DNA of 64,000 nucleotides from Mycolicibacterium tokaiense (GTDB taxonomy: Bacteria; Actinomycetota; Actinomycetes; Mycobacteriales; Mycobacteriaceae), in assembly GCF_010725885.1 (NCBI RefSeq), contig NZ_AP022600.1, positions 744,001 through 808,000 on the forward strand, in the 5' to 3' direction. The notes beneath the pieces are model-generated. The model searched no databases. It was not told the DNA's origin and saw only the letters and a list, made by a program, of their open reading frames with translations. The position numbers were made by a program, and so were the translations under genes. Each line of letters starts with the position of its first letter. Position 1 is the stretch's first letter. Below, in pieces: positions 11,733 to 45,110 of this stretch.

Positions 11733-12574
11733 GCGGATACTCCTTCGAAACCGGTGCGGAGCTGCTCGCGGCAGATCGCCCACTCGTCTTCCTCGATGCG
11801 CATGAAGTGCGCCTTCTCCCGGTTCTCCAGCAGTGGCACACCGCGTCCGATCCTGGTGTCGCACAGGATGACTGCCGGGACGTCGGCATCGTTGGCCGCG
11901 TCGAACGCGGCCAGCAGGGCGTCGACGTCGTTGCCGTCGACACGCTGGGCGAACCAGCCGCAAGCCGTCCACTTGTCGGCGACCGGTTCGGTGCGCAGCA
12001 CCCCGGCAGTGGGGCCGTCGGCCTGCAGGGCGTTGATGTCGACCATGGCAATGAGATTCGACAGCGCGTGGTGCGACGCACCCATGGCGGCCTCCCACGT
12101 CGAGCCCTCGTCGAGTTCGCCGTCGGACAGGAAGTTGATCACCCGCGCGCCGTTGCCCTGGTGCCGCAGGCCCAGGGCCATCCCCACCGCGACGGTCAGA
12201 CCGTGCCCCAGCGATCCGCCGGAGATCTCCATTCCCGGTGTGTAGCTCGCCATTCCGGACATTGGCAGCCGGGAGTCATCGGAGCCGTAGGTCTCCAGCT
12301 CCTCGACGTCGATGATGCCGGCCTCGGCGAGCGCAGCATAGAGGCCGATGGCGTAGTGCCCGGTGGAGAGTAGGAACCGGTCGCGGCCCTGCCAGTGCGG
12401 ATCGTCGGCGCGGTACCGCAGTTGGTGGGCGTACACCACGGCCAGCATGTCCGCGGCGCCCAGCGCCTGGCCGACGTAGCCCTGCCCCTGCACCTCGCCC
12501 ATGTGCAGCGCGTTACAGCGGATGCGGTAGGCCGCTTCCCGGACTTTCTGGGAGGTACTCAGCACCGCGGTCAT
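11729..12574 (-). CDS. transketolase, N-terminal (TPP-binding) subunit
   Basis: A 281-residue partner carrying the thiamine diphosphate pyrophosphate-binding domain: RDRFLLSTGHYAIGLYAALAE, EISGGSLGHGLTVAVGMALG, and the GDG-N cofactor motif region as SDGELDEGSTWEAAMGASHH through MVDINALQADG. Together with the C-terminal subunit it makes one active centre. Coupled downstream to that subunit (ATGA overlap) and upstream to the MHS transporter (4-nt overlap), it is in one transcript. Confidence 0.93.
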   Translation of the reverse strand: MTAVLSTSQKVREAAYRIRCNALHMGEVQGQGYVGQALGAADMLAVVYAHQLRYRADDPHWQGRDRFLLSTGHYAIGLYAALAEAGIIDVEELETYGSDDSRLPMSGMASYTPGMEISGGSLGHGLTVAVGMALGLRHQGNGARVINFLSDGELDEGSTWEAAMGASHHALSNLIAMVDINALQADGPTAGVLRTEPVADKWTACGWFAQRVDGNDVDALLAAFDAANDADVPAVILCDTRIGRGVPLLENREKAHFMRIEEDEWAICREQLRTGFEGVSA

Positions 12575-13914
12575 GCGATCGCGCTCTGCGGGGCGGGGGT
12601 GCGGGCCTCGGCTTCGGCGGCCAGCTGACGCTCACGCGGGCCCCAGGTTTCGCGGGTGGACAGCGCGGCCCACAGCCCGATCGCCATGTAGGTGCTGAAC
12701 AGCACCGCCGGGCCCCACCAGCCGAACGCCTCGAAGAGCAGGGTGGTGACGAAGGGGGTGAATCCGGAGGCGATGGCCGAGATCTGGTAGGCCAGTGAGG
12801 CGCCGGAGGATCGGGTGTTGGCGTTGAATAGCTCGGGGAACCAGCCGCCCTGGGCACCGGCGAGGGCGTTCTGGCAGACGCCGTAGGCGATGGCGAAGCT
12901 CGCGATGTAGAGAAACATCTGCCCGGTGTTCACCATCGTGAACATGAGGATGCCGAATGGGATACCGAAGGCGGTGACCGCGATGTAGACGGGCCTGCGG
13001 CCGATCTTGTCGGTGAGGGTGGCCCAGCCGAACGTGGCGAAGATGCCGAGTGCGGACGCGATGCACAGCGCTGTCAGCGTCTGGCTGGCGCTGGCCAGTC
13101 CGGTGCTCTTCAGGTAGGAGATCATGTAGGTGATCGAGACGGCGTAACCGGCGGTCTCGGCGATGCGAAGACCGATGCCGCGCAGAATATTTCGCCAGTC
13201 GGTCTTGAGCACCTCGGCGATGGGTGACTTCACGATGCTGCCGGATTCCCTGACCTCTTCGAACACCGGCGACTCGGGCACCTTGGCGCGGATCACGAGG
13301 CCGACGATCACCAGGATCATGCTGGCCAGGAACGGCACCCGCCACGCCCAGTCACCGGGCAGGTGCACGCTGACCAGGAAGGTGAGGTTGGCCAGCAGCA
13401 GGCCGACCGGGAAGCCGGCCTGCACGATGCCGGTGTACTGGCCCTTCTTCTTCCACGGCGCGTGCTCGTAACACATCAGGATGGCGCCGCCCCACTCCGC
13501 GCCGAAGGCCAGGCCCTGGATGATGCGGACGGTGACCAGCAGCACCGGGGCCAGGATCCCGACGGCAGCGTAGGTGGGCAGCAAGCCGACGGCGAACGTG
13601 GCCAGGCCCATGATGATCAGCGAGGCGACCAGGACCGGCTTGCGTCCCACCTTGTCGCCCAGGTGGCCGCCGATGACGCCGCCGAGCGGACGGGCCAGGA
13701 AGCCCACACCCAGGGTGGCGAACGCGGCCAGCGTGCCGGCCAGCGGCGAGGCGGAGGGGAAGAAGGCGGTGCCGAAGTACAGCGCCGCGGCGGTTCCGAA
13801 ACCGATGAAGTCGTAGGTCTCGATCACGGCGCCGACGCCGGATCCGACGGCAACTCGTTTGGCTTCCGGCGTGCCGTGCACCGGGCCGCGCATCTTCAGA
13901 GCGTCGTCGCTCAT
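12571..13914 (-). CDS. MFS transporter, metabolite:H+ symporter (MHS) type
   Basis: A 447-residue transporter with about 12 helices. The MHS/ProP-type signatures are GAVIETYDFIGFGTAAALYF, the loop GGHLGDKVGRKPVLV between TM2 and TM3, LLVTVRIIQGLAFGAEWGGA, and TLTDKIGRRPVYI in the second half. It probably imports a sugar acid, polyol or carboxylate for the adjoining transketolase enzymes. The start at 13914 follows GAGAGG at proper spacing; upstream in-frame starts have no spaced site. First gene of the operon, facing the regulatory region with TGTCAACA-type boxes. Confidence 0.88.
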   Translation of the reverse strand: MSDDALKMRGPVHGTPEAKRVAVGSGVGAVIETYDFIGFGTAAALYFGTAFFPSASPLAGTLAAFATLGVGFLARPLGGVIGGHLGDKVGRKPVLVASLIIMGLATFAVGLLPTYAAVGILAPVLLVTVRIIQGLAFGAEWGGAILMCYEHAPWKKKGQYTGIVQAGFPVGLLLANLTFLVSVHLPGDWAWRVPFLASMILVIVGLVIRAKVPESPVFEEVRESGSIVKSPIAEVLKTDWRNILRGIGLRIAETAGYAVSITYMISYLKSTGLASASQTLTALCIASALGIFATFGWATLTDKIGRRPVYIAVTAFGIPFGILMFTMVNTGQMFLYIASFAIAYGVCQNALAGAQGGWFPELFNANTRSSGASLAYQISAIASGFTPFVTTLLFEAFGWWGPAVLFSTYMAIGLWAALSTRETWGPRERQLAAEAEARTPAPQSAIA

Positions 13915-32091: not shown

Positions 32092-33288
32092 TCAGGTGAG
32101 GGCGTCGACGCAGGCGCGGGCGATCGCGAGTTCCTCGTTGGTAGGGATCACCAGCACGGTGGTGGGTGACCGGTCGGCGGAGATGATCCGGGGCCCGCGG
32201 GCGGGACTGTCATTGAGGTGTTCGTCGAGTTCGATACCCAGCGGCGCCAGCCCGGACAGCGCGTCGCGGCGCACCGCCGCATCGTTCTCACCGACACCTG
32301 CGGTGAACGTCAGGACATCCACCGTGCCGAGCAGTGCCAGGTACGCGCCGATGTACTTGCGCAGGCGGTGGATGTAGACGTCATAGGCCAAGCCGGCGTC
32401 TTCTGAGCCGGCGTCGATCTGGCGGTGCAGTTCCCGGAAATCGGTGGCACCGCCGAGACCTTGGACGCCGGAGCTGCGGTTGAGCATGGTCTCGATGTCC
32501 TCGACGGACATCTGCGCGGTACGCCAGAGGTACATCACGACGCCGGGGTCGATGTCACCGCTGCGGGTGCCCATCACCAGGCCCTCCATCGGGGTCAGGC
32601 CCATCGAGGTGTCGACGGGGCGCCCGCCCACGATGGCCGAGGCCGAGGCGCCGTTGCCCAGGTGCAGCACAATCTGGTTGAGGCTCTGCAGCGGCACGTT
32701 CAGGAACTCCGCGGCGCGCTCACTGACGTACTGGTGTGATGTCCCATGGAAGCCGTAGCGGCGAATCTTCCACTCCCGGGCCACGTCCCGGCTGATTGCA
32801 TAGGTGGCGGCGGCCGGGGGCAGGTCGTGGAAGAACGCGGTGTCGAAGACGGCCACGTGCGGGACGTCGGGCAGCACCTTCTGTGCGGTTGTGATGCCGA
32901 GCACGGCGGGCGGATTGTGCAGCGGCGCCAGCGGGGACAGCTCGGTGATGGTGGCCAGCAGCGCGTCGTCGACGACGGTGGGTCGGTAAAGGTCTTGTCC
33001 CCCGTGCACCACTCGGTGCCCGACGGCCATCAGACCCTGTTCGTCCAGCCGCGCGCCGGCCTCGTCGAAGAGTTCGAACACTGTCCGCAGCGCTGCCTCG
33101 TGGTCGGCAATGGGTGTCTCACGGCCCCAGTCCCGGCCTCCCAGTACCAGTGCGGCCGAAGCGTTGTCGTCACCGATGCGCTCGACGATTCCGTGTGCGA
33201 CCGAGGTTCCGGTATCGGGTTGTACGAGTTGGAATTTGACCGACGAGGAGCCGGAGTTGAGCACCAGAACGGTGCGCTGGTCGCTCAC
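32092..33288 (-). CDS. ackA: acetate kinase
   Basis: A 398-residue ASKHA-fold kinase that interconverts acetyl phosphate plus ADP with acetate plus ATP. Signatures are [15 protein letters not shown] at the N-terminus, [62 protein letters not shown] and FTAGVGEN. Its GTG start overlaps the pta stop (GTGA). Followed by a T-run terminator. Confidence 0.97.
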
Positions 33289-35381
33289 TTGCTTTGCGCC
33301 TGGATCGCGGTGATGGCCACCGTGTTGACGATATCGGACACCAACGCTCCCCGGGACAGGTCGTTGACGGGTTTGTTCAGCCCCTGCAGCACCGGGCCGA
33401 TGGCAATGGCGCCGGCGCTGCGCTGCACCGCCTTGTAGGTGTTGTTACCGGTGTTGAGGTCCGGGAAGATGAGCACCGTGGCCCGACCCGCCACCGGCGA
33501 GTCGGGCATCTTCGTGGCGGCCACCGAGGGTTCCACGGCGGCGTCGTACTGAATAGGGCCTTCCACCAACAGTTCCGGGGCGCGTCGGCGGACCAGCTCG
33601 GTGGCCGAGCGCACCTTGTCGACGTCGGCACCGGTGCCCGAGGTGCCGGTGGAGTAGGACAGCATGGCCACCCTGGGGTCGATGCCGAACTGGGCGGCGG
33701 TGCGCGCGGAGCTGATGGCGATGTCGGCAAGCTGTTCGGCGGTGGGGTCGGGCACGATGGCGCAGTCGCCGTAGGCCAGCACCCGATCCTCCAGGCACAT
33801 CAGGAAAATGCTCGACACCGTGGAGACGTCCGGCTGGGTCTTGATGATCTCGAATGCCGGGCGCACGGTGTGCGCGGTGGTGTGCCGCGCGCCGGAGACC
33901 ATGCCGTCCACCAGCTCGTTGTGCACCAGCATGGTGCCGAAGTACGAGACGTCGTGGATGATCTCCCGGGCCTGCTCCAGCGTCACGCCCTTCTTCTTGC
34001 GCAGCTCGGCATACTGCTCGGCGAACCGGTCGCACAGCTCGCTGGTGCGGGGGTCGAGCACCACGGCGTCGGAGAGGTCCACGCCGAGTTCGGCGGCCCG
34101 GCCCCGCACCGCCGACTCCTCGCCCAGGATCGTCAGCTCGGCCACCCCACGGTCCAGCAGCCGTCCCGCCGCCTTGAGGATGCGGTCGTCGTCGCCCTCT
34201 GGCAGCACGATCCGTCTGCGGTCGGCGCGGGCCCGGTCGATCAGCTGGTACTCGAACATCTGCGGGGTGGTCACCGCTGGCATCTCGATGGCCAGTTGCG
34301 CGAGCAGCTCGGCGGTGTCGACGTGGCGGTCCATCAACTCCAGCGCGGTGTCGATCTTGCGCGCCGAATCGACGGTGACCCGCCCCCGGGCACCGGCCAC
34401 CGCGCCGGCCGTCGCGAAGGTGCCGAGGTCGGTGGCGATGATGGGTAGCCGCAACCGGAGCCCGTCGACCAGCGCCGCGATCGAGGGGTGCAGGGCGAGG
34501 CCGCCGTTGAGGATCACCGCGGACAGCGAGGGGAAGCCGTCGGCGGCGTGCGCACTCATCACGGCCAGCACCACGTCCGAGCGATCCCCTGGGGTGATCA
34601 CCGCGACCCCTTCGGTGAGCCGCTCCACCACGTGCTCGGCGGTCATCCCCGCCACCAGGACGTCGAGCACCTCTCTCCCGAGGAGGGCGTCGTCGCCGTT
34701 GATCAGGGTGCCGCTCACCGCGGCGCGCAGATCGGCGACAGAGGGGGCGACCAGCAGTTTGTCCTCGGGTAGGACGTAGGCGGCGGGTTCGAAGCGTTCC
34801 AGGGCAGTGGCCACCGCCGCCATGTCCTGCGGTTCACACCGGTTGGCGACGACGGCGGCGGTGTGCGCGTGCTGGTGGCGCAGCTCGGCCAGGCACAACT
34901 CCACCACCTGGGCCACCTCGTCGGGAGTGCGGTTCTTGGCGCGCACCGCCAGCACCACCGGAGCGCCGAGGTTCACCGCGATCCTGGCGTTGACGCTGAG
35001 CTCACTGGGGCTCGCGACGTCGGTGTAGTCGCTGCCCACGATGAGCACGGCGTCGCAGTGGTCGGCGACCCGGTGGAAACGATCGACGATCTCGGCGATC
35101 GCGGAGTCAGGGTCTTCGTGCAGCTCTTGGTACCCGACGCCCACACAGTCCTCGTAGGTGAGGCCGGCCGACGTCTGCGACAGGAGCAGCTCGAGGATGT
35201 AGTCACGTTCCTCCCCGAGCCGTGTGATGGGGCGAAACACACCCACCTTCGGAACGGTGGCGGTCAGCCGGTGCAGGATCCCCAGAGCGATGGTGGATTT
35301 GCCGGTGTCCCCCTCCGGGGACGCGATGTAGATACTGGATGCGAATCCCGGGGCCTCAGGCACCCCTACAGCCTCCCGCAT
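33285..35381 (-). CDS. pta: phosphate acetyltransferase (long, DRTGG-domain type)
   Basis: A 698-residue two-part enzyme. The N-terminal 350 residues have a P-loop-like start ([17 protein letters not shown]) and a DRTGG regulatory region. The C-terminal 330 residues are the phosphotransacetylase catalytic part ([73 protein letters not shown]). It converts acetyl-CoA and phosphate to acetyl phosphate. A perfect CRP-type palindrome sits 49 nt before the start codon. In M. tuberculosis the next gene upstream is fgd1; here an 8.7 kb block intervenes. Confidence 0.96.
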
Positions 35382-35429
35382 CAGCGGAAACGGGTCCAGC
35401 GCACCCCACTCGAGACCATTCCGCTCCGG

Positions 35430-35445
35430 TGTGACTCATATCACA
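35430..35445. promoter_or_regulatory. canonical CRP/GlxR-type binding site
   Basis: TGTGACTCATATCACA is an exact TGTGA-N6-TCACA palindrome, the consensus of mycobacterial cAMP receptor proteins. It lies 49 nt from the pta start and about 30 nt upstream of the possible plus-strand -10, so it could serve either or both divergent units. Confidence 0.75.
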
Positions 35446-35736
35446 ATGCAACTCGTGTGTTTGCTGTAACTGCGTAGGCTAACGTTTTTGCCAGTTCGCC
35501 GATCGGAGTTGCCGGGTACCAGATGATGCTGAAACTGAGTCAGCCAGCAGGAAACCCGGCGATCGGTGCGGCGGCAGGCATCACCAGCACGATCGTTGCC
35601 CGGAAGCGCGCTCGCGGCCTCTGCGAGCGAAGGCGTCCAGGTGACTGCGCCTCGGGGGAAGCGCGGCAGAACGAGGCAATTGCCCCGGTCGCCGCGCGCG
35701 GTTGTCGGCATCCAGACCCTGGAGCCGGCGGCATTC

Positions 35737-35756
35737 CGGCATCGACATCGATGCCG
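35737..35756. repeat. 20-bp palindrome in the long leader
   Basis: Arms CGGCATCGA and TCGATGCCG separated by CA. Located about 105 nt before the start codon of the first polysaccharide-block gene. Its near-zero spacer fits a protein site better than an RNA hairpin. Confidence 0.5.
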
Positions 35757-35860
35757 AATCGACACGCGATCCACAGCATCGTCTTGGCTGGCACGGGTCG
35801 CAGGTCGCGTACTGTAGGCCTTTGCCACGAATGCCGTGGCACGTAGTCAGGACAGAGAGT

Positions 35861-37354
35861 ATGCCCACCGACTCCCCGGCGTTCAGTGCGAGTTCCCCCC
35901 GCATCGAGGTTGTCAGCGATGTCAACGGCGGCGCTGTGATCTTTGCCGAGTCAACATCCAACCGTCCCGGCCGGGCGGAGATCTGGGCGCGGGTCTGGTT
36001 TGTCCTGGCACTGGGGACCCTGGCCTACTTCGTCCCGCTGACCGAGATCGGACGCGCCGCGTTCGACGGTTCTCAATCGGTTTATCTGTTGGTGGCACCG
36101 ATCCTCGCCGGCCTGGTGGCGTCGGGATATGTCGGCGCTCCTCGGGGTGCACACGACACCGACATGGACTGGATCGGCGCCCTGCTGGTTGCGGTGTGCG
36201 GTTTCGCCACCATCTGGCTGATCGGCGACCGACTGCCCACGATGGCGGCGCTGTGGCACCTCGACAACGTCGGGTTGATCGTGTGGATCGTCGCCTCCGG
36301 CATGGTGGTGTTCTCGGCGCGGCACATCCTGCGGATGTGGCATGTCTGGGCGGTCGGCCTCCTGCTGGCGCCGGTGACACCGTTCCTGTTGGTCACCGCC
36401 CAGTTCGGCGGTACTGACACCGCCATCGCGATGACGACGGCAACCCTGGGCAGCCTCGCGGTGTTCCTGGCCACCCGGTGGGCCGATCTGCGGTCGCGGT
36501 TGCTGATCACGGTGGTCAACGTCGCGCTGTCCGCCGCCGCTGTCCTGCTGCTCGCCGAGGCCTCGCTCTACGTCCGCGTGCTGCTGGCTGCCGGCGCCGT
36601 CCCGGTGCTCGTGGTGCTCGCCGCGCATCGGCTGGTGCCCGGCGCGCGGGACACCGGAACCTCCGCGGCCACCGCGGGGTTGCCCAGGCGCAGGCTGCAC
36701 TCCTATGTGGCGCTCATCCTCGCCGCGGCCGCGATGTTCTGGGCCCACCTCCCGATGGCCCGGCCCGCGCCGGTGGCGGAGGCCCCCTCGGACTGGGTGG
36801 CCGAGGCAGCGCTGGATCCCATCGAGAATTTCGACTTCATCACCGATTTTCTGGGTCCCGACGCCACTTTGACCCGCTACCGTGCGCTCGGTGGCGCCGG
36901 TGAGTACCAGACCGTGGTCGACGTGATGACTGCACCGAGTCTCGGCCGCCTGCAGGACTTCTCCGATGCCGTCTGGTATCCGTCCACGGCGCCGGTGAAC
37001 TACCGGCCCTACGACGTTGCCCCCGCGGCAGACCGGCCTGCGCCCGCCGGAATTCAGACCGCGCACAGTGACGCCGATGCCGCGCAGGTGCAGGGCGCGC
37101 CGAACTGGAACGCTGTGACGTGGATCTGGCACTCCGGCAATGCCTTTCAGCGCGTCACGGTGGTCACCAGCCAGAGCAGAGGCGTGCCCGCCCCCGCACC
37201 GCGGCCACTGACCGTGCACAACCTCGTGGTCGAGCCCGCACTGTGGCTGACCCGCCAGCAGCAGCTGCAGGCCGGTGCGCTGGACCCGATTGTCGCGGCC
37301 AGCACCAACGTGGTGGTACAGCGACTGCTTGCCGTGGGCTCTTCACCCTCCTGA
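35861..37354 (+). CDS. polytopic membrane protein of unknown family, copy 1 (polysaccharide block)
   Basis: A 497-residue protein I do not recognise. After a 40-residue cytoplasmic N-terminus there are about nine hydrophobic segments up to residue 300, then a soluble C-terminal domain of about 180 residues that should lie outside the membrane. It is clearly paralogous to the protein encoded next: shared blocks include LPTMAALWHLDN, SARHxLRMWxVW, LVTAQFGGxDTAIAM, and in the C-terminal domain FLGPDA, LGRLQDFSDAVWYPS, AHSDADAA and EPALW. No enzyme motif is evident. Position before a cellulose-synthase-like GT2 and BcsB-like gene suggests a role in polymer export or assembly. RBS is weak. Confidence 0.75.
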   Translation: MPTDSPAFSASSPRIEVVSDVNGGAVIFAESTSNRPGRAEIWARVWFVLALGTLAYFVPLTEIGRAAFDGSQSVYLLVAPILAGLVASGYVGAPRGAHDTDMDWIGALLVAVCGFATIWLIGDRLPTMAALWHLDNVGLIVWIVASGMVVFSARHILRMWHVWAVGLLLAPVTPFLLVTAQFGGTDTAIAMTTATLGSLAVFLATRWADLRSRLLITVVNVALSAAAVLLLAEASLYVRVLLAAGAVPVLVVLAAHRLVPGARDTGTSAATAGLPRRRLHSYVALILAAAAMFWAHLPMARPAPVAEAPSDWVAEAALDPIENFDFITDFLGPDATLTRYRALGGAGEYQTVVDVMTAPSLGRLQDFSDAVWYPSTAPVNYRPYDVAPAADRPAPAGIQTAHSDADAAQVQGAPNWNAVTWIWHSGNAFQRVTVVTSQSRGVPAPAPRPLTVHNLVVEPALWLTRQQQLQAGALDPIVAASTNVVVQRLLAVGSSPS

Positions 37355-37419
37355 CGGCCAATCGGGCGACGCCCGGCACCCTGCAGGGCATGCCATTTGT
37401 TTGCTAGTTTCGCTAGCTC

Positions 37420-37448
37420 TGGCATTTTTACGAGCTAGTCAGTACTAT
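37420..37448 (+). promoter_or_regulatory. probable sigma-A-type promoter inside the polysaccharide block
   Basis: TGGCAT (37420-37425), a 17-nt spacer and TACTAT (37443-37448) lie in an AT-rich patch between the two paralogous genes. This is close to the TTGACA/TATAAT consensus and would give a leader of about 115 nt before the second copy. Several GCTAG repeats surround it. Confidence 0.5.
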
Positions 37449-37571
37449 TCCAGACGTAGCGCAACGATGCTGGTCAGCTTCCGACGATCAACATCGTGCG
37501 CCAGCTGTAGTGCCACCCACTTGCCCACAGTCGCGGTCGCCCCGACCCGACTCGTACCGAGAACTGGGAAC

Positions 37572-39038
37572 ATGTCGATCGATCTGCCCCTCTATCGTCC
37601 CGACCCTGCCGACGGCCGCGTCGACATGGCGGAGTTCGAACAGGCGGTACTCCCCACCCGGTCCCGCGTCAATCCCGAACTGTGGGCCAGGATCTGGTTC
37701 ATCCTGTTCGTCACCGCTGTGGCCTACTTCGTCCATCTCGCCGAGTTGGGTCGCACCGCCGCCGGTGGCTCTCAGGCTGCCTATCTGGTGGTGGCGCCGG
37801 TGCTGGCGGGTCTGGTGGCCGCGGGATACAGCCGAGCACCTCGTGGCGTGATCGACGCCGAATCAGATTGGATCGCCGCCGCTCTGCTGTGCATCGGCGG
37901 GTTCGCCGCGATCATCCTGATACAGCATCGACTGCCGACCATGGCTGCCCTGTGGCACCTCGACAACCTCGGGCTGCTGGTGTGGGTGGCCGCCTGCGGC
38001 ACCGTGGTCTTCTCTGCCCGCCATGTCCTGCGGATGTGGAATGTCTGGATCCTGGGTCTGGTGCTGGCCCCGGCGATGCCGTTCATGCTGGTGACTGCCC
38101 AGTTCGGCGGATCCGATACCGCCATCGCCATGGTTTCGGCCGCCATCGGCACCATCGCGGTGTACCTGGCATCCCGATTCGTCTCTCTGCGGGTGCGCCT
38201 GGCGGTCACCTTGGCCAACATGGTGGCCTCCACCGCCACTGTCCTGCTGCTCGGCGGGGTCGGCCTGTACGTCACCGTGCTGATCGCCGCCGGCGCCGTC
38301 CCCGTGGTGGTGGTCCTCGCTCTGCACCGGATCACCTGGGTCCGAAGCGATCCGGACATCGCGACTTCGCCGCTGCCACTGCCCTCGTGCCGACCGCAGT
38401 CCTACGCCGTCCTGGTGGTCGCCGCCCTCGTGATGCTGTGCATCCAGCTGCCCCTGAGCCGACCTGAGCCGGTGGCCGATGCCGCCCCGGGCTGGGTGGA
38501 CAGCAGCGGACTCACGGATGGCGAGAGCTTCGAGTTCATCACCCGCTTCCTGGGGCCCGACGCCAGCCTGGTCCGCTATCGGGTGACCGCCCGATCCGAT
38601 GCCTACGACACCGTGGTCGACGTGATGACCTCACCAGATCTGGGTCGTCTGCAGGACTTTTCGGACGCGGTCTGGTATCCCTCCGCGGTTCCGGTGAACT
38701 ACGCACCGTTTGACGCCGGTGCCGACGCCCCGGCCGGGATCAAGTCCGCGCACAGCGATGCCGACGCGGCCACCACCAGTGACACCCCCAACTGGGACGC
38801 GGTCACCTGGGTCTGGCGCAGCGGCGACGTCTACCAGCGGGTGACCGTGTTGACCAGTCAGACCCGCAACATGCCCGCGCCTGCACCACAACCGCTGTCG
38901 GTGCGCAGCGCGCTCATCGAGCCCGCATTGTGGACACTGCGTCAGCAACCCTCCGACCCCGGTGCGGTGAACCCGTTGGCCAGAGCCGACACCGAGGCCG
39001 TGGTGGACATGCTGCTGCACCAGCACTCCCGCGCATGA
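37572..39038 (+). CDS. polytopic membrane protein of unknown family, copy 2 (polysaccharide block)
   Basis: A 488-residue paralogue of the preceding protein with the same layout: about 45 cytoplasmic residues, nine hydrophobic segments, and a C-terminal soluble domain beginning near residue 310 (FEFITRFLGPDASLVRYR). The two copies agree over their whole length, so they arose by tandem duplication, yet each has kept its own upstream region. The gene ends in an ATGA overlap with the GT2 gene, showing that it is translated together with the synthase. Start: ATG after GGGAA. Function unknown. Confidence 0.78.
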   Translation: MSIDLPLYRPDPADGRVDMAEFEQAVLPTRSRVNPELWARIWFILFVTAVAYFVHLAELGRTAAGGSQAAYLVVAPVLAGLVAAGYSRAPRGVIDAESDWIAAALLCIGGFAAIILIQHRLPTMAALWHLDNLGLLVWVAACGTVVFSARHVLRMWNVWILGLVLAPAMPFMLVTAQFGGSDTAIAMVSAAIGTIAVYLASRFVSLRVRLAVTLANMVASTATVLLLGGVGLYVTVLIAAGAVPVVVVLALHRITWVRSDPDIATSPLPLPSCRPQSYAVLVVAALVMLCIQLPLSRPEPVADAAPGWVDSSGLTDGESFEFITRFLGPDASLVRYRVTARSDAYDTVVDVMTSPDLGRLQDFSDAVWYPSAVPVNYAPFDAGADAPAGIKSAHSDADAATTSDTPNWDAVTWVWRSGDVYQRVTVLTSQTRNMPAPAPQPLSVRSALIEPALWTLRQQPSDPGAVNPLARADTEAVVDMLLHQHSRA

Positions 39039-40483
39039 GTCAGGAGTACGCGACGGCGCAACTGCCGCCGCATCTGTCCGCGCGCACTGTGCTGGACCGC
39101 CGGTCGATGGTGCGCATCGCCGTGGTTGCCGCGCTAATCGCGGCGGCCTTCCTGATGGTGCCCAACGGGGCCGCCGCGGTGATCACCACCGTGATCGCGA
39201 TCTGCTATCTCATCACGTCGCTGGACCGGAACTGGTTGCTGATCAAGGGTTTCACCTCACCGTCGCTGGTGACGGTCAGCGATGAGGACGCCAGAGCCGT
39301 GCCGGATGACCAACTGCCGTTCTACACAGTGCTTCTGCCGGTGTTCAACGAACCGACCATCATGGAGAACCTGCTCACCGGCGTCGGCCGACTCGACTAC
39401 CCCGCGGACAAGTTGGAAGTACTGCTGCTCATCGAAGAGGACGACCTACCCACCCAGCTCGCGGTCGCGGACATAGTGCTGCAGTCCGTCCGGGTGGTCC
39501 TGGTGCCGCCGAGTGAGCCCCGCACCAAGCCCAAGGCGTGCAATTACGGGATGTCCGTTGCCGATCCGCGCAGTGAGATGATGACCATCTACGACGCCGA
39601 GGACATTCCCGAGCCGCTGCAACTGCGCCGCGCGGTGGTGGCCCTGCGACGTGCACCCGACGACGTCGGCTGTGTGCAGAGCCGGCTCGGGTACTTCAAC
39701 GAGAATCAGAACCTGCTGACGCGGTGGTTCGCCCTGGAATACGACCAGTGGTTCGGCGTGGTGCTGCCCGCCATCCAGGATGCCCGCTGCGTGGTACCGC
39801 TGGGCGGCACCTCCAACCACATGCCGACCCGGGTGTGGCGGGAAGTCGGCGGCTGGGACGAGTTCAACGTCACCGAGGACGCCGATCTCGGAGTGCGCCT
39901 GGCCCGGTACGGGTACCGCACCATCATCTTGGACTCGGTCACGTTGGAGGAGGCCAACTCCGACGTCGTCAATTGGATCCGGCAACGCTCGCGGTGGTAC
40001 AAGGGCTACCTCCAGACGATGATGGTGCACCTGCGCCATCCCCTTGCGTTGCGCCGGGAGATCGGCACCAAAGCCATCCTGCGACTGATCACGATGACCG
40101 GCGCTGTGCCACTGGGCAATGCCTTCAACCTGCTGTTCTGGTTTGCGCTGCTGTGCTGGATCGCCGGCCGGCCGCCGTTCGTCAGCTTCCTCTTCCCGCC
40201 CTTCACCTACTACCTGTGCCTGACGCTGTTCATCGTGGTCGCCCCCATGGCGATGTTCGTCGGACTGGTGGTCAGCCATGAACTGGGCAAGCCGTACCAC
40301 TGGTGGGCCGCCCTGCTGGTCCCTCTGTACTGGCTGCTGCAGTCGGTCGCTGCGATCAAGGCGATCTACCAACTGATCTTCCGGCCGTTCTTCTGGGAGA
40401 AGACCGTGCACGGCCTCACCCACAACCCCCTCACCTCACACCATTCTGCGGTCGCCACCGCAAGACCCGACGGAGACGAGTAA
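39035..40483 (+). CDS. cellulose-synthase-like family 2 glycosyltransferase
   Basis: A 482-residue processive-type GT2. Two N-terminal helices are followed by the catalytic domain FYTVLLPVFNEPTIMENLL, KPKACNYGM, the UDP/metal site MTIYDAEDIPE (about residue 187), acceptor-base motif NVTEDADLGVRL (about 280) and the translocation gate motif QRSRWYKGYLQ (QxxRW, about 316). Four to five C-terminal helices form the channel. There is no PilZ domain, unlike BcsA, so direct cyclic di-GMP control is not expected. With the BcsB-like gene 2 nt downstream it should polymerise and extrude a beta-glycan or similar polymer. Confidence 0.9.
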   Translation: MSQEYATAQLPPHLSARTVLDRRSMVRIAVVAALIAAAFLMVPNGAAAVITTVIAICYLITSLDRNWLLIKGFTSPSLVTVSDEDARAVPDDQLPFYTVLLPVFNEPTIMENLLTGVGRLDYPADKLEVLLLIEEDDLPTQLAVADIVLQSVRVVLVPPSEPRTKPKACNYGMSVADPRSEMMTIYDAEDIPEPLQLRRAVVALRRAPDDVGCVQSRLGYFNENQNLLTRWFALEYDQWFGVVLPAIQDARCVVPLGGTSNHMPTRVWREVGGWDEFNVTEDADLGVRLARYGYRTIILDSVTLEEANSDVVNWIRQRSRWYKGYLQTMMVHLRHPLALRREIGTKAILRLITMTGAVPLGNAFNLLFWFALLCWIAGRPPFVSFLFPPFTYYLCLTLFIVVAPMAMFVGLVVSHELGKPYHWWAALLVPLYWLLQSVAAIKAIYQLIFRPFFWEKTVHGLTHNPLTSHHSAVATARPDGDE

Positions 40484-40485
40484 CC

Positions 40486-42393
40486 GTGCAACCCGCCCTT
40501 CGCCGCATCGTGTGTACGGTCGGCGCCGCCGCCATGACGGCCGCGCTGGCCCTGCCATCGATCGGCACTGCCCACGCCGCACCCAGCACCTCCCCGGCCA
40601 TCGGATGGAATCAGCTCGGACTGTCCGATCAGATGCAGTTGCTGGGCGCCAATCAGCCCACCGACGTGGAGATGCCGGTGCCGGACGGAGTGTCCCCGGC
40701 CCGGCTCACCGGTCAGATCGGATCCGTGGTCAACACCGACGGCCGCATCGATGTGGTGGATTCCCGCGGTGTGGTGATTGCCACCATCGCGATCCCGGCC
40801 GACCTGGCCACCGTGCCCTTCACCATCGATATCTCCAAGGCCGAGGTGGTCGACGGCGTCGCCAGGTTGAGTTTCCGGCTGCGCGACTTCGCCAATCAGC
40901 GTGTCGACAGCTGTGTCCAACCTCCCGAGGTGACGTTGAGTCAACTCGCCGCAACGTATTCGGGCACCGCGCCGGATCCCGGCACCGTGGCGGACTTCCT
41001 GCCCGGTTACCTGGACCGGATCACCATCCAGGTGGGTTCCGAACCCACCGAGGACCAACAGCAGGCCGCGCTGGACCTGGTGGCCAAGCTGACCCACCTC
41101 TACCGGCCGATGCCGGTACGCATCGACGTCGACACCGCGGGCGACCCCGGGGCCGACACCGGCCGGGACGCCCACCGGACCATCGTGATCCGCGACGGCG
41201 CACCCGGGATCACCGTCGAGAACGCCGACTCCCCCGATGCACAGCTGGTGATCTCCGGCTCCGGCCCGGAGCTGCAACAACAGGTGGAACTGTTCGCCGA
41301 CCGCCGATTCGGGTTGGCGCAGAACAGTTCTGCCGTGGTACTCACCGCGAGCCAGGAGCAGGCACAGCTGTCCAACATCAAGACCTTCGAGCAGCTGGGC
41401 ATGACGGGTCAGGTGTCGGTTCTCGGCCTCACCACCATGTACGCCGGTTTTGACGTCGCGACATTCGGCGTCGGTTCCATCACCAACGCCAAGGTGCACC
41501 TCAAGGCCCGCTACACCCCGGTGGTGGGAGGCGATGCCTCGGTGCTGATCCGTTCCGGGTCAACCGTGCTGGCCACCCAGAAGCTCGACGAGTCCGGTGT
41601 CCTCGACATCACCGGTGACATCCCCGCCGAGGACATCACCTCGAATGTCGGGATGGCCCTGGAACTGCGGTACACACCGCGTCAGGAATGCGCGCCGCTG
41701 AACGACAGGATCAGCTTCGCACTCGACCCGCAGTCCACCATCACCGTCACCCCGGGTAGCCGCAACCGGGGCGGATTCCCGGTGTTGCCCATGGCATTCA
41801 ACCCCGACTTCGAGGTGGCTCTCGACCAGCCCGGGCATCTGGACTTCGCCGCCCAGGCGATCAATCTGATGGGTCAGCAGAGCTCGATGCCACTGCGGCC
41901 ACACATCACCAGCTTCGCCGAGGCCGCGACGGCTGGCACCGGCCTGCTGGCGGTCACCGGCGGCAGTGAGCTGGCAGCAGCCGGAATGCGGGCCCCGTTG
42001 CTGCCGTCGTCGGAGGCCTCGGTGGACGTGGCGGGAAGTCCGGAGACCGACATCGACCTGCAGGGCGGAGTCGGTGTGGTGCAGGCCTTCACACACAACA
42101 ACCGGACCGTGCTCGCGGTCACCGGGACCGACGACTGGGCGCTGGTGGAGGCCAGCTTCGACTACATCCGCGGGCTGCCGAACCGGTGGGCATCGCTCAC
42201 CGGTGACGTGGTGGCCACCGGCGCGGCAGGCGACTCCCTGAATCTCACGCTGCACGAGGGCGGCGGTATGACCAACGAATACCCCGGCGACGGCTGGAAG
42301 TGGTGGGCCTGGGCATCGATCGCCACCGGCGGCGCCGCGGTGCTGGCGGCGCTGGCGTTCGTTGTGCTGCGGCGACGGCGTGCCGGCCACTGA
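40486..42393 (+). CDS. BcsB-like cellulose synthase accessory protein
   Basis: A 635-residue secreted, C-terminally anchored protein. Signal peptide about 1-31 (ending GTAHAA); a single helix near the end (WASIATGGAAVLAALAFVVL) followed by RRRR. The interior repeats lectin-like and flavodoxin-like modules in the BcsB manner: TFEQLGMTGQV, VHLKARYTPVVGGDASVLIR, GSTVLATQKLDESG, IPAEDI and NVGMALELRYTPRQEC. BcsB guides the nascent glucan leaving BcsA. The GTG start is placed by GGAG upstream and 2-nt distance from the GT2 stop. Two Cys (VDSCVQPP and RQEC) may pair outside the cell. Confidence 0.78.
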   Translation: MQPALRRIVCTVGAAAMTAALALPSIGTAHAAPSTSPAIGWNQLGLSDQMQLLGANQPTDVEMPVPDGVSPARLTGQIGSVVNTDGRIDVVDSRGVVIATIAIPADLATVPFTIDISKAEVVDGVARLSFRLRDFANQRVDSCVQPPEVTLSQLAATYSGTAPDPGTVADFLPGYLDRITIQVGSEPTEDQQQAALDLVAKLTHLYRPMPVRIDVDTAGDPGADTGRDAHRTIVIRDGAPGITVENADSPDAQLVISGSGPELQQQVELFADRRFGLAQNSSAVVLTASQEQAQLSNIKTFEQLGMTGQVSVLGLTTMYAGFDVATFGVGSITNAKVHLKARYTPVVGGDASVLIRSGSTVLATQKLDESGVLDITGDIPAEDITSNVGMALELRYTPRQECAPLNDRISFALDPQSTITVTPGSRNRGGFPVLPMAFNPDFEVALDQPGHLDFAAQAINLMGQQSSMPLRPHITSFAEAATAGTGLLAVTGGSELAAAGMRAPLLPSSEASVDVAGSPETDIDLQGGVGVVQAFTHNNRTVLAVTGTDDWALVEASFDYIRGLPNRWASLTGDVVATGAAGDSLNLTLHEGGGMTNEYPGDGWKWWAWASIATGGAAVLAALAFVVLRRRRAGH

Positions 42394-44197
42394 TGTCCTG
42401 AGCCCACCGGCTGCGGCGTCCCCCGCCGAGGACGCCGCTACCGGGCGGGCCCGGGCACCGAAACGCATCTGGGGTGTCGCACTCTTCGCGGTGCTGTCCG
42501 TCTTCTACTTCGCCGTAGGCGCCGTTCTGGTGTTGCGCTACAACCTCTTCGACCCCGACGCACCCAGCCGCGTGGCCAACGCCGGCTATGCCCTCTACAG
42601 CAGACAGCCCCACCTGTCCGCCATCGGTTTCGTGTGGAATCCGCTGCCCAGCCTGGTACAGATCCCGGTACTGCAACTCAGCGGCTGGTGGCCCGCGCTC
42701 AAGACCCACGGTCTGGCTGCAGTGGTGCAGAGTGCTCTGTTCATGGCCGGTGCGGCGGTGATGGTGCGCCGCATCGCGCTGGACCGCGAGGTGGGCACCT
42801 GGTGGCGGTGGCTGGCGGTGGCGGCGTTCGCGCTGCAGCCGATGATCATCGTCTACGGCGCCTCCGGGATGAGCGAGGCAGCGCAGGCGTTCTTCCTGCT
42901 GTGGTGTGTACGCCACCTGATGCGCTGGCTGGGCAACAACTGGGTGGGTGACCTGGCTTGGGCGGGGATCGCTCTGGGTCTTGGTTATCTGGCCCGCTAC
43001 GAGGTGATTCCGGCTGCATTCGGCGCGGCGCTGCTGGTGGCCGCGGCAACGTTCCTGCGGTCGGCGGCACCGCTGCGCGACAGGATCAACTCCGCCCTGC
43101 TCGCAGTGCTCATCGTGGGCTTCCCCCTGGTGTCGGTCTTCCTGATCTGGGCGCTCACCGGCTGGGTGGTCACCGGCGAACTGTTCGCGACACTGACGTC
43201 GCAGTACGGCAACGAGAGCCAGGTGTCGGCAGCCATGGAACGCGGCGGGCCCGCTGCGCTGGCGGCCTCCGACGACTGGGTGGTGATCGCCGCCCGGTTG
43301 TTGGGAATGCAGCCCTTCGTCCTGGTGGCCATCGCGCTGGCAGTGGCGCTGGCACTGCTGCGCCGCAACATCGCCGCGCTGGCACCGGCCCTGGTGTTCG
43401 GCGGTGTCCTGGCGTTCGCCGCGGCGGGCCAGTACTCATCGACCACCTTCGGGTGGTTCCGCTTCTACCTGTTGGCCATCCCACTGGTGATCTGTGTGGC
43501 ACTGGCGCTGTGGACGCCGGCCGGCACAGCCGCACCCGGCCCCTGGCGCACGGGGGACATCACCGCCCGTCTCGGCGCGGCGCTGATATCCCTGTCCCTG
43601 GTGGTGGGTATTCCCGTGACCGTGTTTGCCATGTCAGACTCGCGAATCGGCAACCAGCAGTTGCAGTTCGGCTTCCAGTCGCTGCTGGACCCCGCGGCGC
43701 ATCCGCCCGAGGAGCAGTGGTACCGACGCCTGATGGTCAACGATCGCACGCTGGCGGCATACTTCGACAACCGGCACCTGCCGCCGGGGTCGGTGCTGAT
43801 GGACTCGTTCAACACCTGGGGAGTGTGGCTGGCGTCAGACAACCCGAAGCAGTTCGTGATCACCAGCGACTACGACTTCACCGCAGTGATGAACCGGCCG
43901 TGGGACTTCGGCATCCGCTACATCGTGGCGAGCAACCCCGCGATCAGCGACGCCGACGCACTGAACGTCCGGTACCCGCAGCTGTGGGACAACGGAGCGG
44001 GCCTGGGCCGGCTGGTGCTGTCGGTGTACGGCGCCACCGGGGACGAGCGGTTCCGGGTCTACCGGTTCACCGGGAAACCGCCCGACTCCGAGGACGAGGT
44101 CAGCCCAGCTTTCGCAGGCGGGGTTCCAGATCCCGTTGGAACAGTTCCAGGAAGCGGCGCTGGTCGTGACCCGGTGCGTGGAACACCAGGTGGTTGA
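42380..44197 (+). CDS. GT-C family membrane glycosyltransferase (ArnT/PMT-like)
   Basis: A 605-residue protein with about ten to twelve membrane segments. The first large extracytoplasmic loop carries acidic residues typical of GT-C enzymes ([15 protein letters not shown]), and the loop [11 protein letters not shown] follows; the C-terminal third from about residue 430 is soluble ([14 protein letters not shown]). It would use a polyprenyl-phosphate sugar to decorate a polymer outside the membrane. The GTG start overlaps the BcsB-like gene by 14 nt; a TTG 18 nt earlier is possible. The last 33 codons run antisense into fgd1 and are low-complexity Gly/Pro, so the natural C-terminus may have been lost. 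Confidence 0.78.
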
Positions 44198-45110
44198 GAC
44201 CCCAGTCCACGTAGTCCTTGACCTTGGCGACGGCCTCATCGGGATCGGAGGCCACGATCCAGCGTTTGGCGACCTGCTCGATGGGCAACGCGTCGGCGGC
44301 CTTCTCCATCTCGATCGGGTCGTCGATGGAGTGTTTCTGCTCGGCGGTCAGCGACAGCGGCGCCCAGAAGCGGGTGTTCTCCAGTGCCGCCTCGGGATCG
44401 GTGTCATAGGAGATCTTGATCTCGATCATCCGGTCCACGTCATCGGGGTTCTTGCCCGCCGCCTCGGCACCTTCGCGCATGGCGGGGATGAGCTTGTCCT
44501 TGTAGAGCTCCTCGCCCTTGCCCGAGGTGCAGATGAAGCCGTCGCCGGCGCGGCCGGCGTACTTGGCCACCTGGGGGCCGCCCGCAGCGATGTAGATCGG
44601 GATACCGCCCTCGGGCACGTCGTAGATCGAGGCCCCCTTGGTTTTGTAGTAGTCGCCGTCGAAGTCCACCCGGTCACCGAGCCACAGCTCGCGCATCAGG
44701 CGCACCGACTCGCGCAGCCGGGCATAGCGTTCCTTGAACTCCGGCCATTCCCCTTCGTAGCCGGTGGCGATCTCGTTGAGCGCCTCACCGGTGCCCACAC
44801 CGAGGAAGATCCGTCCCGGGTACAGACACCCCATGGTGGCGAACGCCTGCGCAATGACCGCCGGGTTGTAGCGGAACGTCGGGGTCAGCACCGAGGTACC
44901 CAGCTGCAGCCGCTGGGTGCGCTCCCCGACCGCGGTCATCCAGGCCAACGACCAAGGCGCGTGCCCGCCCTCGTGGCGCCACGGCTGGAAGTGATCACTG
45001 ACCGTGGCGCTGTCCATCCCGTGCGCCTCGGCGGCCACCGCCAGCTCCACCAACTCACGCGGCGCGAACTGCTCCGCCGACGCCTTGTACCCCAGTTTCA
45101 GTTCAGCCAT
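44100..45110 (-). CDS. fgd1: F420-dependent glucose-6-phosphate dehydrogenase
   Basis: A 336-residue luciferase-like TIM barrel that oxidises glucose 6-phosphate with coenzyme F420, the main source of reduced F420 in mycobacteria. Key parts: [20 protein letters not shown], the catalytic His in VSDHFQPW (about residue 40), [21 protein letters not shown] with the catalytic Glu (about 109), and [21 protein letters not shown] precedes the ATG. In M. tuberculosis pta follows directly; here its 3' end is overlapped for 98 bp by the convergent glycosyltransferase frame. Confidence 0.96.

Follow-up and report, generated by a model that had tools for sequence, protein, structure and literature searches.

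Do the genes that lie between pta and fgd1 in Mycolicibacterium tokaiense form one system, and if so, what could it make? The window analysed here is a stretch of 64,000 nucleotides (contig NZ_AP022600.1, positions 744,001 to 808,000). A sequence-only reading had placed five plus-strand genes in this interval and, indeed, five open reading frames, all intact, stand between the flanking genes it named. They code for two membrane proteins (M1 and M2), a BcsA-like glycosyltransferase (GT2), a BcsB-like protein and a protein called here GTC. M1 and M2 had been described as paralogues, in agreement with their 55% identity. We consider it probable that the block is a synthase-dependent exopolysaccharide cassette in which a pseudo-exosortase, M, acts as scaffold or regulator. 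This reading rests on the gene content, the conservation of the unit, the predicted BcsB fold, the motifs of GT2, and the exosortase ancestry of M with loss of its catalytic triad; the chemistry of every step, the nature of the polymer and the part played by M are deduced from the protein families.

The co-occurrence of these genes had been proposed as a check, and they are not scattered in other genomes: M, GT2, BcsB and GTC recur as a unit. Among 198 genomes of the genus, BcsB-like proteins were detected in 108, GT2 (E<=1e-60) in 69 and GTC (E<=1e-20) in 64. The 80 GT2 rows fall into 30 close to that of the window (type 1), 3 intermediate, 37 diverged (type 2) and 10 distant sequences. Genes for BcsB and GTC adjoin GT2 at 29 of the 30 type 1 loci, the 30th being split across contigs, at all three intermediate loci and at 34 of the 37 type 2 loci; GTC is found at the remaining three type 2 loci and at one of the 10 distant ones. 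As this count used 129 of the best 150 BcsB rows and left out 21 of the weaker ones, the three type 2 loci missing BcsB are an upper bound. GTC without GT2 nearby is rare (4 of 74 rows, two at contig borders and two partial matches). M accompanies the cassette at 26 of 29 loci; of the other three, two run into a contig border and one has only BcsB. A single M per locus is usual, M1 and M2 occurring together, among the 29 loci compared, only in the window and in L055 (where, at 12412-13868, M2 matches as two pieces in different frames and M1 in one piece). Four-gene sets are also present in two other genera (L118, L119), and the cassette genes are under purifying constraint (pN/pS 0.24-0.55, the value for M2 coming from comparison with the sole full-length M of L055 and L059, which is not strictly orthologous).

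Named hosts of type 1 cassettes include M. komossense, M. wolinskyi, M. elephantis, M. chubuense, M. chlorophenolicum, M. vaccae and M. iranicum; type 1 hosts account for 23 of the 31 loci in this comparison, and the remaining eight come from Lentisphaerota records with GT2 at 38-42% identity. The two type 2 loci examined, L003 and L069, appear from a reading of the loci to lie next to ribosomal-protein genes. Elsewhere in the genome of the window (G000, 6,328,149 bases) there is another GT2 (45%), along with two further BcsB-like proteins (36% and 27%). In Lentisphaerota L101-L104, the gene after GT2 (38-40%) looks, by eye, GT-C-like, and the one before it codes for a large secreted protein, the end of which looks, again by eye, SGNH-type; in L101, neither of these two has a Pfam match.

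The GT2 of the window matches PF13632/PF13641 above the Pfam cut-off, and the NCBIfam models CelA, PgaC and MftF match it far below theirs (CelA, TIGR03030, 45.7 versus 699.1 bits). It carries the motifs D137, DAED at 187-190 (a DxxD variant), TED at 280-282 and QRSRW at 317-321, the key motifs being invariant in 23 of 23 sequences. Identity to BcsA, NfrB and PgaC of Escherichia coli is 21-23% over parts of the proteins (BcsA about 23% over 334 residues, NfrB 22%), and a profile of 12 GT2 relatives retrieves solved BcsA, the best solved relatives, at 5e-21. For the BcsB-like protein, neither Pfam, with its BcsB family PF03170, nor NCBIfam gave a significant match, and among 41 members of its family PF03170 gave one match, at E 0.061. 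Its predicted structure matches solved BcsB over most of the chain in a fold search, so that the earlier guess at its identity is borne out by the predicted fold and we regard it as a probable BcsB-fold protein; C143 and C402 are invariant. GTC would be a polytopic glycosyltransferase of GT-C type. In the window it has only a sub-threshold PMT_2 match, which rises above the cut-off in the relatives L118 and L120. Residues D60, R64, P77 and H78, in what is presumed from an inferred topology to be the first outer loop, are invariant in 23 actinobacterial rows, and D60 is not invariant in a wider set of seven.

The two M proteins had been called unknown, which holds for direct family matches and not for their ancestry. 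No significant Pfam or NCBIfam match and no direct match to an exosortase hidden Markov model (HMM) was obtained for either, and the membrane part of the M2 model (mean pLDDT 84; C-terminal domain Mog1/PsbP-like with middling Z) had no match in a fold search against the PDB, which is no evidence of a new fold. With direct HMM and PDB fold searches giving nothing, it was comparison with the gene of L120 that resolved their identity: at L120, L146 and L147 an exosortase holds the position of M between GT2 and GTC, and M aligns with it. In hhalign, the M family and the exosortase were related with probabilities of 97.4% and 99.5%, nine controls reaching at most 7.1%. By profile comparison, then, M1 and M2 are exosortase relatives. 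The catalytic Cys, Arg and His occur in the aligned columns of none of 54 M rows; near-misses outside these columns, where the alignment is uncertain, are a Cys within four residues of C215 in 2 of 44 type 1 rows and a His within four residues of H281 in 10 of 44. PF09721 has no match in the genome of the window at E up to 0.01, and a protein search with A7 returned no Pfam domain and no further exosortases among the best 120 of 406 matches, which include proteins from M. goodii and M. neoaurum. We also considered, and rejected, the idea that M grips the BcsB tail in the way an exosortase grips its target: the EYPGDGW motif before the tail helix is not present in all proteins of type 1, type 2 or type 3 (type 3 being defined below). 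Proteins encoded beside these exosortases, at L146 13607-14359 and L147 12930-13757, have C-termini that read, by eye, as a PEAP motif followed by a hydrophobic stretch and an Arg tail, and are possible sorting-signal targets.

The distribution of regulatory domains on GT2 gives an indication of what M might do. MshEN is a cyclic di-GMP (c-di-GMP) receptor, as described in the accessible parts of PMC5013675 and, for NfrB, of PMC8669469. GT2 of this family occurs in 23 of 396 genomes of the phylum; 18 of these lie outside the genus, and 12 of the 18 were examined. In nine (L121-L129), GT2 is fused to an N-terminal MshEN domain scoring above the Pfam cut-off, and no M was found; in L118, L119 and L120, which have M or an exosortase, GT2 has no MshEN match. 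The GT2 of the window has neither a PilZ nor an MshEN match. Altogether, MshEN is absent from all six tested GT2s accompanied by M or an exosortase and present in 9 of 13 tested GT2s without M; three tested Lentisphaerota (of eight) and the mycobacterial L131 have neither, which argues against a strict M-or-MshEN rule. This distribution, in small numbers and with kinship ignored, supports the view that M may stand in for MshEN.

The site of the block proved to be less conserved than had been thought. We surveyed the fgd1-pta distance in 133 of 138 genomes of the genus, those with a pta match. It is below 150 bp in 62 (in 58 of them with both genes on the same strand and fgd1 upstream), 150-1000 bp in 6, 1-30 kb in 52 and more than 30 kb in 4, fgd1 being on another contig or absent in 9. 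The two genes are thus no fixed pair that the block would have broken apart. Type 1 GT2 was found in none of the 62 genomes with the short distance. Judged by coordinates, the cassette lies inside the interval in 19 genomes (18 type 1, one intermediate); 21 carried this label by genome, with the cassette elsewhere in G079 and BcsB alone in G111. In G113, G101, G052 and G137 the interval is 15-17 kb long and holds, with no type 1 cassette, a BcsB-like gene at 33-34% identity (type 3). In G137 this gene stands together with Wzx-, Wzy- and GT4-type genes, and the type 3 BcsB-like gene of the window's own genome likewise lies among genes for Wzz, Wzy_C, a flippase and glycosyltransferases. Consequently, this is a hot spot for polysaccharide clusters of several exchangeable types, which have a BcsB-like protein in common, and the idea of a unique insertion has to be given up.

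Several genomes seem to record the traffic at this site. The intact four-gene set of G079 lies outside the pta-fgd1 interval, which suggests that the cassette moves as a unit. G040 retains between pta and fgd1 a relic of GTC (L136 7278-7514, C19; 82 residues, 76% identity, 78% in a second comparison) with no other cassette gene found at that locus, and this is a decayed copy of the cassette. G111 is a further case of decay: its pta-fgd1 interval contains a BcsB-like gene (L150 4438-6366; the same locus as L057) and none of M, GT2 and GTC. In the cassettes that occupy the interval of G082 (L135) and of G183, G018 and G145 (L132-L134), the GT2 is of type 1 or intermediate and the BcsB is type 3-like, a further sign of module exchange. 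Next to pta and before a full cassette, M. sediminis carries an additional BcsB-like gene (L080 4445-6262, 52%). In M. smegmatis, we take the interval to be occupied by MSMEG_0778-0782; the portions of papers at hand annotate these genes as coding for a regulator, a dehydrogenase, a permease and an aminotransferase.

The cassette of the window is itself a mosaic. When 26 type 1 loci are compared in pairs, the distances correlate at 0.85 between M and GT2, 0.90 between BcsB and GTC, 0.82 between GT2 and BcsB and 0.69 between GT2 and GTC; correlations of the cassette genes are 0.48-0.70 with pta and 0.16-0.25 with fgd1. The GT2 of the window groups with L055 and L059 (support 100), as do M and pta by identity. 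This grouping is rejected by BcsB (p 0.003) and GTC (p 3e-12), in a test on 23 of 39 sequence sets (the window and 38 loci) with a quick method and a simple model; the p-values are descriptive, since the clade was chosen after the identities had been seen. In trees, GTC falls with L080/L088 (97), and BcsB has a less firm place with L053 (92); the sequences of highest identity are, for both proteins, those of L080, L037 and L088. The BcsB-GTC half thus seems to have been exchanged, a pattern resembling that of surface-antigen loci.

Coordinates are collected in the table. The sequence-only reading had stressed the tight packing of GT2, BcsB-like and GTC, which extends to M2: M2 and GT2 overlap by 4 nt (ATGA), GT2 and BcsB-like are separated by 2 nt, and BcsB-like and GTC overlap by 14 nt. 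These four genes therefore look like one transcription unit. M1 ends 217 nt before M2, and the 3' ends of GTC and fgd1 overlap by 98 nt. No sigma-70-like promoter, riboswitch or other Rfam match was found in the block. The same genome has a second fgd1-like gene (C1:5737622-5738626), with a protein 100% identical over residues 2-336, and a third (C1:2738569-2739570) at 93%.

Table. Features of the pta-fgd1 interval, in window positions; gene starts were assigned by reading start codons in the sequence
Feature	Position	Strand	Description
pta	33285..35381	-	left flank; copies 78-92% identical in compared loci
divergent region pta/M1	35382..35860	.	479 nt; presumed location of promoter(s)
M1	35861..37354	+	polytopic membrane protein with C-terminal extracytoplasmic domain; exosortase relative without active-site triad; lineage-specific duplicate of M2
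M2	37572..39038	+	family of M1; M gene immediately 5' of GT2
GT2	39035..40483	+	BcsA-like glycosyltransferase, by Pfam matches and motifs
BcsB-like	40486..42393	+	beta-rich; predicted BcsB fold; N-terminal hydrophobic segment and C-terminal anchor helix
GTC	42380..44197	+	putative polytopic glycosyltransferase of GT-C type; GTG start
fgd1	44100..45110	-	right flank

If the block is an exopolysaccharide cassette, GT2 would use a cytosolic nucleotide sugar to polymerise a glycan, and would thread the chain through its own membrane channel. The BcsB-like protein, held by one C-terminal helix, would take and guide the chain outside the plasma membrane, and GTC, dependent on a polyprenyl-phosphate sugar, would add side residues at the outer face, with M having a scaffold or gating role. 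The sugar donor of GTC is probably a housekeeping polyprenyl-phosphate sugar. The block had been said to look like a complete machine for making, guiding and decorating a glycan; the word complete overstates the case, as no gene for export across the mycomembrane or for the GT-C donor was recognised in the block. A bolder scenario, which we offer as tentative, would make it a separate polysaccharide synthase class of mycobacteria and some other actinobacteria. An exosortase that formerly anchored proteins in partnership with the same GT2 and GT-C would have lost its active site and become a structural or sensory subunit replacing c-di-GMP control, and a BcsB-type crown would have been added. 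Such a synthase would make the decorated, cellulose-like glycan that has long been sought in environmental mycobacteria, and strains would exchange it as a surface-antigen module.

Other explanations deserve consideration. The block could be a plain mycobacterial cellulose synthase, GT2 and BcsB making unbranched beta-1,4-glucan from UDP-glucose while GTC and M serve another task. The BcsA relationship of the GT2 profile, the predicted BcsB fold and the cellulose reported in mycobacterial biofilms without a known synthase (in the parts of the literature consulted) all agree with this. We nevertheless think it unlikely, as GT2 falls so far short of the CelA cut-off and has no PilZ match, and as GTC travels with GT2 and co-varies most closely with BcsB, so that decoration looks like part of the system; moreover, in the available part of PMC4125290, a BcsB ortholog of Listeria is paired with a GT2 whose product is not predictable as cellulose. 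About as improbable is a non-processive GT2 contributing to a lipid-linked glycan or cell-wall side chain, to which GTC would add sugars, the BcsB-like protein being a carbohydrate-binding chaperone. BcsB-like proteins do not require a processive synthase, since paralogues lie inside Wzz/Wzy/Wzx-type clusters without a GT2 of the window type (L036, L148) and 47 of 51 rows at 33-37% identity have no GT2 of this family nearby; a Bac_transf gene also occurs near a type 2 cassette. Against it, GT2 retains QRSRW, its membrane region aligns with BcsA, and BcsB and GT2 belong to one tight unit.

It is more doubtful still that M remains an enzyme, an exosortase-like protein with an altered active site that processes or attaches a partner. 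Polar residues are indeed retained: the exosortase residues D84, D88 and R139 are kept in all 57 rows of one alignment, and D95 and R150 of M2 in all 23 rows of another. However, D99 of M2, at the position of D88, is Asn in L037 and L050, and the retained residues may be structural because catalytic exosortases keep them too; in addition, no Cys column is common to more than 20 of 54 M rows, and no tail motif is shared by BcsB of all types. A chance collection of unrelated cargo at an integration hot spot would fit the variability of the interval, with its 1-30 kb inserts in 52 of 133 genomes, and is very hard to reconcile with a gene content and order common to 29 of 30 loci, with the existence of a diverged second set and with the four-gene sets of L118 and L119. 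We retain the exopolysaccharide cassette with a pseudo-exosortase as the best explanation.

The block had also been put forward as an undescribed system. We found no description of the cassette in the open-licence literature on mycobacterial cellulose, BcsB and exosortases, which is no proof of novelty, and putative cellulose-synthase components are mentioned in passing for M. neoaurum and M. cosmeticum in the accessible text of PMC6364259 and PMC7952908, so that genes of this sort have not entirely escaped attention. Which genes would make a cellulose-like matrix in mycobacteria is, in the source passages at hand, called unknown; a conserved GT2-BcsB cassette in culturable Mycolicibacterium makes this question testable by gene removal. 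If our reading is true, M would represent a new kind of pseudoenzyme, an inactive exosortase that has become the constant companion of a polysaccharide synthase. It would connect exosortase sorting with exopolysaccharide synthesis, which co-occur, to our knowledge, without a known physical link.

Among known systems, the Pss system of Listeria monocytogenes makes a polymer of N-acetylmannosamine (ManNAc) with galactose. Its likeness to the block, as far as the available part of PMC4125290 goes, is that in the pssA-E operon a GT2 (PssC) adjoins a BcsB ortholog (PssD). It differs in having a c-di-GMP receptor with a degenerate GGDEF domain (PssE), whereas none of the five window proteins has a GGDEF match and the block has M and a GT-C protein in addition. 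BcsA-BcsB shares with the block the catalytic motifs and membrane region of GT2 and the predicted BcsB fold; unlike it, the block has no PilZ match and no recognised BcsC-, BcsZ- or BcsQ-type gene, and has GTC and M as extra components. The MshEN-controlled synthase NfrB-NfrA of E. coli, in the excerpted text of PMC8669469, resembles the actinobacterial relatives of the window GT2 in carrying MshEN, which is C-terminal in NfrB, N-terminal in these relatives and absent from the window GT2. Finally, M differs from the exosortases EpsH/XrtA (PF09721, TIGR02602/TIGR04178) in lacking the Cys, Arg and His, and resembles them in aligning with the exosortase that L120, L146 and L147 have at the very same position.

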